From positions 3,565,641 to 3,629,640 of the forward strand of contig CM034599.1 in the NCBI GenBank assembly GCA_020091685.1: a stretch of 64,000 nt of DNA, given 5' to 3'. Shown here in pieces: positions 23,942 through 53,850 of the stretch. Source of the DNA: Lutjanus erythropterus (Eukaryota > Chordata > Actinopteri > Lutjaniformes > Lutjanidae). A program made the translations under genes and the position numbers. Below the pieces are notes generated by a model. That model did no database searches, was not told the origin of the DNA, and saw only the letters and a program-made list of their open reading frames with translations. Numbering within the stretch: the first letter of the stretch is position 1; each line of letters opens with the position of its first letter.

Positions 23942-24430
23942 GGAATAAAGTCAAAATGTCACGAATAAAGCTGAAATGTTGAGGATGAAGTTGAAATGTC
24001 ACGAATAAAGCTGAAATATAAAGAATCAAGTTGAAATGTTGAGAATAAATGTCAAGAATAATGTTGAAATCTTGAGGATAAAGTTGAAATGTCAAGAATT
24101 TAGTTGACATATCAAGAATAAAGTTGAAATGTTGAGAATAAAGTTCATATATCAAGAATAAATGTCAAGAATAATGTTGAAATCTTGAGGATAAAGTTGA
24201 AATGTCAACAATAAAGTCAAAACATCAAGAGTAAAGTATAAATTCTGAGAATAAAGTCAAAACGTTGAACATAAAGTCAAACTTTAGTGCCAGGCCTAAT
24301 AAAAAGGCAAGGGAAAAGATTTTATCACTTTTATATTTAACATTTTGAGAATAAAGGCAAGATATCTAGAGTAAAATGAAAATGTCAAGAGTAAAGTTGA
24401 AAAACTCAAACGAGAGTAAGGTCAAGATGG
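23942..24430 (+). repeat. Minisatellite of about 20-bp AATAAAGTTGAAATGTCAAG units
   Basis: More than 15 diverged units: AATAAAG, then (C/T)TGAAAT or TCAAAA, then GTTGAG or GTCAAG. About ten units keep AATAAA exactly on the plus strand. A short interruption lies at 24290-24345, then the array resumes and ends at 24430. 24433-24475 carries the motif in inverted orientation (TTTATTCTCAACATTTTGAC). The minus-strand frame at 23913-24155 is a by-product. Confidence 0.9.
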
Positions 24431-47275: not shown

Positions 47276-48696
47276 GTGCAAGGGCAGGCCCAGACGGTCA
47301 CATGATGTCACCCGCAGATCAGCCAGGGGGAGCCTGTGGAGACGGCGGGTGGGAGGGAGCAGTTTATCTGCACAAACATTTGCATCAGCGCCCCAGGGCT
47401 CAGTGTCTGCTGCCCCCTAGTGTGTGTGTGGCTGAGTTATCAGCAGCTTGTTATCCAGCCTTGAGATGAGTGCTTTGATGTGGGGAAAATTGAGTGTAAC
47501 TGTCAGGACAAGTAGCAATTTATTATATTGCAATTTGCTATTTAGAAAGCTTTGCGACGAATGAGACAGATATAGAGAGCAGCTGACTGGGAAGTGATGT
47601 CTGATGCACAAAGGTCTGAGGTCACCGGTGATGATAACTGCCATCATTAGGGATCCATTACACCATGGAGCCTACTTCAGCTGATGGACTCTAATGATGT
47701 TGCACTGCAGAAAAGCATTTAGTTTTGATTAGACAATTGTTGGCATGGTGCATTTCATTAACTCCAAGATGAGATTTTGTTGTGTGGGAATTGATATGCC
47801 ACTATTTGAGCCCGGTTGAACAGACGGTGCCCCGTTTCCCTCAAGGCAATCTGGAGCAAGTTAAGAAACAAACGTAATAATGGAATATTCCCCTCCTGAC
47901 ACTCTTCTGCCTTTTACATCCAACGTCCTTCCCCTCTTTATCCCCCTCCAACAAATTGACTTTTAACCAGCCTGACCTTCTGCAGATGATGTCTCTGCTT
48001 TCTTGCCTTAGCATATTATTGCACTGTTAAAAAGTACGTCTAAATGTGTGTTATCAACACTCTAAAATATCAAGAACCACGATTAAATCATCAAGAACCC
48101 AAATATCAACACAAAAAGTCATAAAGAACACCAATTTTGGCACTAAAAATTGTAAAGAACCTAAATAACAGCACTCCAAAATATCAAGAACCCTGATATT
48201 AATGCAAAAAATTGTTAAGAACTCTATCAAGACCAAACTGTTAAGCACTCTGATATCAATGCTAAAATCAAGAACCCAATATTAATGTTAAAAGTAGGGA
48301 TGCACCAATACCACCATTTTTTCAGACCAAGTACAAGTACAAGTACTTACATTTGGTTACTTGCTGATACCGAGTACCAATACAGGTACTTAATAATGCC
48401 ATTAAAGTTCTTACAACAACTTTTAAAACATGTTTTATTTGCATTAGATGGTCACTTTCTAAAAGTAACAAATCATTGTTGCTGTTTTGTGCTACAAGTG
48501 TAACCATGGTTACTGTAATTATTATATTTTTAGATTATTTTAGATTATAGAATTAAGTTTACTATTATAAATTGTGTTATATGATAATTATTTCATCATC
48601 ATTTACAGCATTTTACCTAGTAATTTTAATTACACATTTACATGTGTAGTATTTAAGTTTCTTCTTCATGTGCCTCTTGTTGAAGAGTTAATTAGT

Positions 48697-48891
48697 CTGG
48701 GCTAAGAACTAGAACCTTCTTTGAATTTATTAGACAGACTAGGTTACATAATAGAAATTAATCTCTGACCCACACTCCGGAGCAGAAGGTGGCGGTAATG
48801 CACCTATAATACGCTGGTTGCCAACCGCCGTTAAAATCCAAAAAGAAGAAGAAGAAGAAGAAGAAGAAGAAGAAGAAGAAGAAGAAGAAGC
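48697..48891 (+). mobile_element. 195-bp retroposon with (GAA)n tail
   Basis: Flanked by GTTAATTAGT at 48687-48696 and again at 48892-48901, a perfect 10-bp target duplication. The body ends GCAGAAGGTGGCGGTAATGC, then TTGCCAACCGCCGTTAAAAT, then A5 and GAA units. This 3' module followed by GAA repeats is familiar from many fish loci. It is 5'-truncated or a short SINE; no pol III boxes identified. Confidence 0.82.
48845..48890 (+). repeat. (GAA)15 microsatellite, retroposon tail
   Basis: Uninterrupted GAA run of about 46 bp forming the 3' tail of the inserted retroposon. Confidence 0.95.
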
Positions 48892-49745
48892 GTTAATTAG
48901 TTCCTACCTGTCATTGTTTACGGGGGACAGGTATGAGTGTGGGGCCATGTGTGCATCAGTTTTATTGACCCTGCTGTGAACCTCAGAGAGGGAAGTTGTG
49001 TGTCCTGTGCTGTCAGGACGTTTTGGTGAAGAATAAGTTCACAAAGAGAAGTTATAGCAGTTTATTATGAAGAAAGGATCGGCGGTGTTTCTTCTTCGTC
49101 TTGGATTAATTTGTCGACGCATCAACTAGTTTCCAGCCGTCAGGACTGATTGGACAGCGGCTGGCTGCGGTCTGCAGCTGCTCTCTGTGCATTTATTTCA
49201 GTTTTTCGTGGACTTACATGAAATTTTACGGACAGTTTCCAAAGTCTCTGCGGTCATTAGTGGATGATGTTGAGGACATGTTGAGGATGATGACGGCGTG
49301 TCCAAAAAAAGGTGAGCATCAGCAAACGTCTCTGCATCATGGCGGTTCTTTAGATGTTTGATTGTGTCGAGTAGCTACTTTTAGTGACGTGGTATCCGGT
49401 GTGTGGTATCGGAGTAGTTTTATGAGTATAGAGTTTGTGAGGACAGTATCGGACCGATACCCGATGCTGGTATTGGTGCATCCCTAGTTAAAAGTGATAA
49501 AGAACACCATTAGCAATGCTAAGAATTGTAATGAACCCCAATATAAAAACTAAAAATCATCAAGAACCTCAATGCCAACATCAAAACTCGTAAAGAACCC
49601 CAATATCAACACTACAAACTGTAAAGAACCCCAATATAAAAACTAAAAATCATCAAGAACCCCAATATCAACATCAAAACTCGTAAAGAACCCCAATACC
49701 AACAGCAGAAATTGTAAAGAACCTCAGTATCAACAAAATCAGCTA

Positions 49746-53334: not shown

Positions 53335-53483
53335 TTTTTATGCAGAAGAGGGATTATGTTTTCTGGTTGTCTGTCCGCTGTCCGTCCCACTCATGTGAAC
53401 GCAGCATCTCAAGAACACCTTGAGGGAATTTCCTCAACTTTTGAGCAAACATCCACTTGGACTCAAGGATGAACTATTTGGAA
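53335..53483 (+). repeat. Dispersed fish repeat J (fragment)
   Basis: CTCATGTGAACGCAGCATCT, then CAAGAACACCTTGAGGGAAT, TTTCCTCAACTTTTGAGC and ACATCCACTTGGACTCAAGG, ATGAACTATTTGGAATTTGG. I recall this ordered series as a very abundant percomorph repeat; only one copy occurs here. Confidence 0.65.
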
Positions 53484-53850
53484 TTTGGAAAAAGGTCATG
53501 TGGTCTGATGAGTCCAGATTTACCCTGTTCCAGAGTGATGGGGGCATCAGGATAAGAAGAGAGGTGGATGAAGTGATGCTGCCATCATGCCTAGTGCCTA
53601 CAATACAAGCCTGTGGGGGCAGTGTTATGATCTGGGGTTGCTTCAGTTGCTCAGGTCGAGGTTCAGCAACGTTATGTGTCCAAAAACTGAGGTCAGCTCA
53701 CTACCTGAATATACTGAATGAACAGGTTTTTACAGCAATGGATTTTTTTTTGCTTCCCTGATGACAGGGACATATTCCAAGATGAAAATGCCAGGATTCA
53801 TACATACAACCGCAAGGCAGTAACTCTAGTTAAATCATCACATGAATCCA
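53484..53850 (+). pseudogene. Tc1/mariner transposase relic (catalytic core fragment)
   Basis: The translated frame has VMWSDESRFTLFQ with the first catalytic Asp, then GGSVMIWGCFS, then LNILNEQV. After a one-base shift near 53755 it continues DIFQDENARIHT with the second catalytic Asp. This is the Tc1 family core: strand-transfer D, GGG(S)VMVWGC motif and Q-D-N-A-x-x-H motif. The N-terminal paired-type DNA-binding domain and the third acidic residue (normally D or E about 34 residues after the second Asp) are missing. No inverted ends found. Dead fragment of about 110-120 codons. Confidence 0.88.

Follow-up and report, generated by a model that had tools for sequence, protein, structure and literature searches.

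We found that a three-level nest, in which a LINE fragment lies inside a hAT element that itself lies inside a 31-bp minisatellite, was most likely not assembled from the outside in. The retroposon probably rode in with the hAT, which would have been loaded already when it landed in the array. The nest lies in the window, by which we mean the whole 64,000-nucleotide stretch of DNA that was analysed, located on contig C9; the genome comprises 938 Mb, and its repeats look, in our judgement, fish-like. The original prediction had read the order of events as array, then hAT, then retroposon. Its first step is sound, as the array was there before the hAT, while its last step does not hold, since a hAT copy on another contig, C16, carries the same insertion.

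The nest itself is real and built of ordinary kinds of element. Its parts, in window coordinates, are as follows:

48052..48286, no strand: left part of the 31-bp minisatellite, degenerate, matching the right part at 61-75%
48287..48294, no strand: left 8-bp hAT target duplication, GTTAAAAG
48295..49486, plus strand: putative non-autonomous hAT, including the retroposon and one of its duplications
48295..48313, plus strand: left 19-bp terminal inverted repeat
48687..48696, no strand: left retroposon target duplication, GTTAATTAGT
48697..48891, plus strand: 5'-truncated LINE 3' end with a (GAA)n tail, of an RNase-H-bearing LINE group
48892..48901, no strand: right retroposon target duplication, GTTAATTAGT, a site that is single in empty hAT copies
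48902..49299, plus strand: hAT positions 403-800, putative gene-conversion tract with 96-100% identity per 100 bp to copies L002-L004, its far end not sharp
49468..49486, minus strand: right 19-bp terminal inverted repeat
49487..49494, no strand: right 8-bp hAT target duplication, GTTAAAAG
49495..49735, no strand: right part of the 31-bp minisatellite, with TRF periods of 31, 62, and 93 bp from 49498

A base-by-base check agreed with the prediction that the minisatellite is split by a 1192-bp hAT with 19-bp ends and 8-bp duplications, and that this element is in turn split by a 195-bp GAA-tailed retroposon with perfect 10-bp duplications. The hAT ends are inverted copies of each other at 19 of 19 bases, with GTTAAAAG directly outside on both sides. 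The retroposon, enclosed by its two copies of GTTAATTAGT, has a tail that contains an uninterrupted (AAG)16 run; without it and one 10-bp duplication, the hAT has 987 bp of its own sequence. When the hAT and one GTTAAAAG were excised in silico, 30 bp remained between the neighbouring unit cores, and of the 16 spacings between cores once the array was rejoined, 11 were 31 bp, in line with the claim that rejoining the array restores a unit. We also scanned the window for inverted 12-mers at most 3 kb apart with identical flanking 8-mers. This hAT was the sole result, and the same scan found none in 20 first-order Markov resamples of the window.

The outermost layer has a clear 31-bp period in its right part (TRF scores of 211-340), and tandem units of this length fall within the minisatellite range of 10-60 bp. 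The left half is the more degenerate: TRF at score 40 called the right part alone, and the 61-75% match between the two parts came from an ungapped comparison using a 138-nt reference copy of the left part. Against the genome, the right part gave 67 matches on many contigs (40 of 93 candidates were scored), with identities of 67-84% apart from the self-match. With arrays masked, nine of these loci (L040-L048) and the 6-kb flank in the window yielded no element common to the arrays' surroundings; the only pairs found between array flanks were L042/L048 (overlapping genomic loci), L041/L045 at ~70% in two alignments, and L042/L043 over 37 bp. The window holds a further degenerate tandem array at 23943-24280, with ~20-bp units inside longer periods of 73-113 bp.

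The hAT belongs to a large family: 24 bases of a left end matched 425 places in the genome at up to 2 mismatches, and a 27-base stretch immediately to the right of where the retroposon sits matched 558, also at up to 2 mismatches. We aligned 42 copies with the window copy, having removed L067 and L084 as repeats of others and left out L059, which repeats L002. Both ends were found by script in 14 of the 43 copies, window included. Thirteen of these have flanking 8-mers that agree at 7-8 of 8 bases, with sequences that vary by locus; the remaining two-ended copy (L058) matches at 0 of 8. That the 8-mers are paired within copies and specific to each locus identifies them as target duplications, and the element behaves like a mobile hAT type. 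We place it, by its 8-bp duplications and short inverted ends, as a putative non-autonomous member of the hAT superfamily. The prediction would have been undermined had the duplications been part of each repeat's consensus, and neither set is: the 8-mers differ between loci, and GTTAATTAGT is present only once in the empty hAT copies that were inspected.

Several other features of the window touch on DNA transposons. At 48528-48548, the window hAT lacks ~85 bp that are present in other copies (for example L002, L003, L006, and L010); the gap sits at a 10-bp direct repeat, TTTTAGATTA, and looks like a deletion between short repeats. Within the hAT interior, we noted by eye an ATG-led stretch of ~95 bp (49217-49312) that ends before GTGAGC and could be a remnant first exon with its splice donor. 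Outside the nest, a reading frame at 53399-53758 resembles a Tc1/mariner transposase fragment; a Pfam search of the frame matched no family at an E value of 0.01.

The innermost layer is the 3' end of a LINE. Our comparison of the retroposon kept rows covering most of the query, which gave 9 aligned and 7 compared copies. Longer copies (L011, L012, L014, and L015) extend further upstream, and relative to them the insert is 5' truncated. Together with the repeat tail at its 3' end and flanking duplications whose length varies in the wider LINE group, this truncation marks the insert as a product of LINE retroposition by target-primed reverse transcription. Pfam identified an RNase_H domain upstream of the 3' end in L012, of the insert's own lineage (E value of 2.4e-7), and in L029 and L033 of a sister lineage (9.1e-9 and 3.2e-12). 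It found no RNase_H match in the remaining 4 of 7 LINE fragments, and no RVT_1 match in any of the 7, whose loci reach ~1.5 kb upstream. No SINE head was found in the retroposon, with 0 Rfam matches at the gathering score and 0 genes in a tRNA scan. We also considered a retroposon family with a fixed 5' end and rejected it, as only the two copies inside hATs, among five closely related places, start at that point. A text search of the literature for the letters of the LINE motif returned no paper that appeared related by its title.

These five places are all that the genome offers for the 5' part of the insert's lineage (35 positions, at most 3 mismatches), compared with 108 places for an 18-base motif of the wider LINE group (at most 1 mismatch). 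Two of the five occupy one identical hAT site: the window, and the hAT copy at C16:25040282, which the same LINE piece interrupts at an identical position. Both inserts begin CTGGGC, in contrast to the AAGTGGGC or AAGTGGAC of five longer aligned LINE copies, and in both an additional C separates the GAAG tail from the duplication. The surroundings are unrelated. The window flanks (2 kb on each side) share with the 3.15-kb C16 locus one 33-bp match at 85% and nothing else. Thus, the insertion is not private to the window locus, and the nesting by itself gives no order there. Most simply, a single insertion into a hAT was carried to two places by hAT transposition, and the retroposon would then be older than the landing in the array. 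The C16 element has no right end, aligning to the 1192-bp window element only as far as position 870; a target duplication of its own, which would be direct evidence that it transposed, therefore cannot be checked.

Several features argue against arrival on board. At the second base of the 10-bp duplication, the two window copies have T and the two C16 copies have C, as if two hAT variants had been the targets; in 37 other hAT copies this base is C in 28 and T in 5, and it is T in the empty copies L002, L003, and L004. A single insertion could produce the T/T and C/C pairs only through homoplasy and conversion. The retroposon bodies also speak against it: those of the window and C16 differ by 10.4%, for each of them some other copies are at least as similar, and the only private substitution common to them is the 5'-terminal C.

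The two pairs of duplication variants fit two separate targets, which would be expected if the hAT had landed empty in the array and received its retroposon later, at a shared hotspot and independently of C16. The site does look like a hotspot. GAA-rich sequence directly before it was found at 32 places; among the 30 that were read, 4 have a GAA-tailed insert and 26 do not, and the remaining 2, known from their matched letters alone, look empty. The four inserts are those of the window, C16, C5:22303467 (L005), and C3:25278268 (L061), and in the last two, LINEs of other lineages end at this same 3' junction. The C5 insert matches the sister lineage at 83-95% over 61-112 bp and the window copy over only 42 bp, and has a clean duplication, AGCTAATTAGT. 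The C3 insert is ~81% identical to several lineages over 48-86 bp and belongs to neither the window's nor the sister lineage; it shares the 3' junction, while the left duplication and ~50 bp of hAT to its left are missing. An (ATT)n run lies at the 5' junction of the C3 insert. By a script rule, the 42 other aligned copies comprise 33 that read through the site, 3 with inserts, and 6 that are otherwise rearranged.

If the window and C16 inserts are counted as one event, three independent events fell on one position. Random placement of 1000 insertions would put 3e-4 expected events at the 558 sites, a figure that is only a guide, being post hoc, based on an assumed number of insertions, and limited to a scan for GAA-tailed inserts. 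A script detected exact duplications of at least 9 bp in 7 of 29 tailed copies of the wider LINE group: the window, C5, L022, L025 with its duplicate L026, L028, and L029. In L022, L025, L026, L028, and L029 they start with GGAG, AGA, AGA, AAGA, and AGA, respectively, and overlap the tail, although the 10-bp duplications in L022 and L028 may be due to chance. On this thin evidence, the starts would fit priming in which the target pairs with the tail, for which AAGAG is available at the hAT site; the 3' flanks of other LINE copies are unlike the hAT site. It seems to us an even call whether (GAA)-tailed LINEs use this one hAT base as a landing pad, three lineages having done so through pairing of the tail with AAGAG just upstream of the nick, and whether hATs then ferry the LINEs onward. 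A hotspot common to several LINE lineages would offer a testable case of tail-guided target choice. We noticed no title about a hotspot of this sort in literature searches directed at other questions.

Even with such a hotspot, and with empty elements as the window's closest hAT relatives on C9, we consider a late independent insertion quite unlikely. Chance would have had to produce identical 5' truncations and an identical extra base at the junction in both copies, and the lineage has only five close matches genome-wide. Mammals also rarely show parallel insertions at orthologous sites, the published rates of precise parallel insertion being 0.18-0.29% for toothed whales and 0.01-0.04% for primates (PMC10531181). 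These rates concern orthologous sites in mammals and serve here as a rough guide only. The probabilities attached to this and the other three histories are our own judgement.

We return to arrival on board, and to how the sequence to the right of the retroposon bears on it. The closest hAT relatives of the window copy are the empty L002 (C9:3870513), L003 (C9:2640732), and L004 (C9:3933816), which lie within ~1 Mb on the same contig. At 37 sites, L002-L004 agree (at least two with letters) and differ from the consensus of the other copies; counted by eye, the C9 letter is present in the window at 33 of these (exceptions at 77, 388, 724, and 862) and in C16 at 4 of the 26 sites with a C16 letter. 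The right flank counts against arrival on board: the tree for hAT positions 402-667, built from 41 rows, joins the window to the empty C9 copies, although the four-row C9 clade has an SH-aLRT value of only 46%. Forcing a window-C16 clade in this region was 33 log-likelihood units worse, with an AU p value of 0.089. For positions 1-388 (30 rows), a quick tree placed the window with L002 and L003 (SH-aLRT value of 93); holding the window and C16 together gave a likelihood 6.7 units higher than the quick tree and was not rejected (p = 0.629).

Identity to the C9 copies also differs between the two sides of the retroposon. Over hAT positions 402-700, the window is 98.7, 98.3, and 98.0% identical to L002, L003, and L004, compared with 92.0 and 87.5% to L002 and L003 over positions 1-388. 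Counted as differences, the window departs from L002, L003, and L004 at 8/398, 9/398, and 9/393 positions in 402-800 and at 29/363, 47/376, and 7/98 positions in 1-388 (Fisher p values of 1.4e-4, 1.8e-8, and 0.024). L002 and L003 show a like contrast with each other (5/398 on the right versus 38/360 on the left), whereas other hAT copies diverge alike on both sides (13.0% left and 13.6% right). This pattern suggests a stretch homogenised among the C9 copies, from near the retroposon site to about hAT position 800, and fits gene conversion; the retroposon may have acted as the left limit of the tract in the window copy. Such a tract would account for the grouping of the right flank with the empty C9 copies. 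It would also explain the T in the right duplication, but not the T in the left one. Given their proximity and the homogenised core in common with the window, L002-L004 could reflect local conversion or local hopping.

Conversion could have gone further and passed the retroposon itself between resident hATs, in which case the window hAT may have landed empty. The uneven divergence does suggest conversion among the C9 copies, and the insert is common to the window and C16 while the right flank is not. However, with T in both window duplications, the tract would have to end within about 1 base of the right duplication. C16 and C9 are moreover different contigs, and the conversion suggested by our data is among C9 copies. 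We consider a transfer of this kind unlikely.

The empty C9 copies invite one more explanation, in which the retroposon was present in an old ancestor of the window, C16, and C9 copies and was lost precisely from those that are now empty. Precise deletion of retroposons is known, and is estimated at 0.003% in toothed whales (PMC10531181). An event so rare in mammals would be needed in all three empty C9 copies or in their ancestor, and 33 of the 42 other aligned hAT copies read straight through the site. We find this history hardly credible.

We thus favor a history in which the retroposon arrived on board. A (GAA)-tailed LINE fragment would have inserted by target-primed reverse transcription into a hAT copy elsewhere in the genome. 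The loaded hAT, or a descendant of it, would later have been moved by hAT transposase supplied in trans. One loaded copy would have come to lie on C16, and another would have landed inside a minisatellite unit on C9, producing the 8-bp duplications. Later gene conversion with the empty C9 copies could then have homogenised the window hAT to the right of the retroposon.

Divergence does not supply the order that the nesting withholds. We tried to rank the events by age and rejected the approach, as the retroposon (10/144 sites from its consensus) and the hAT (73/987) are not separated (Fisher p = 1.0), with small consensus sets of 6 LINE copies and 38 hAT rows. Gene conversion can also distort the ages of elements (PMC8230782). 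The claim that the locus is a clean record for dating repeat families is accordingly not borne out: the insert shared with C16, the hotspot, and the signs of gene conversion all blur what the nesting can tell. Nested repeats are often read as a record of time, and this locus shows, within one genome, how such a reading can fail. It could fail by several routes, as an insert may ride in its host element, one base may be used by different LINEs, and conversion may rewrite flanks. The case is modest but instructive.

Each part of the nest has counterparts among known systems. The hAT resembles the non-autonomous hAT-superfamily elements of vertebrates, with which it has in common 8-bp duplications, short inverted ends starting with TAGGGATGCACC, a length of ~1 kb, and hundreds of genomic matches. 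The RNase H domain and triplet tail of the LINE are reminiscent of the I group of LINEs. LINEs with both features include that group, such as the Drosophila I factor, which has a TAA tail, and the Nimb clade. The likeness to the I group and the Nimb clade consists of the RNase H domain and a triplet-repeat tail, here (GAA)n with duplications of 10-14 bp where found; these two features suggest a relationship. The nest as a whole resembles the nested transposons that are generally used to order insertions, in its physical nesting and its intact target duplications. Unlike in those systems, the inner insert here is also present in another copy of the outer element.
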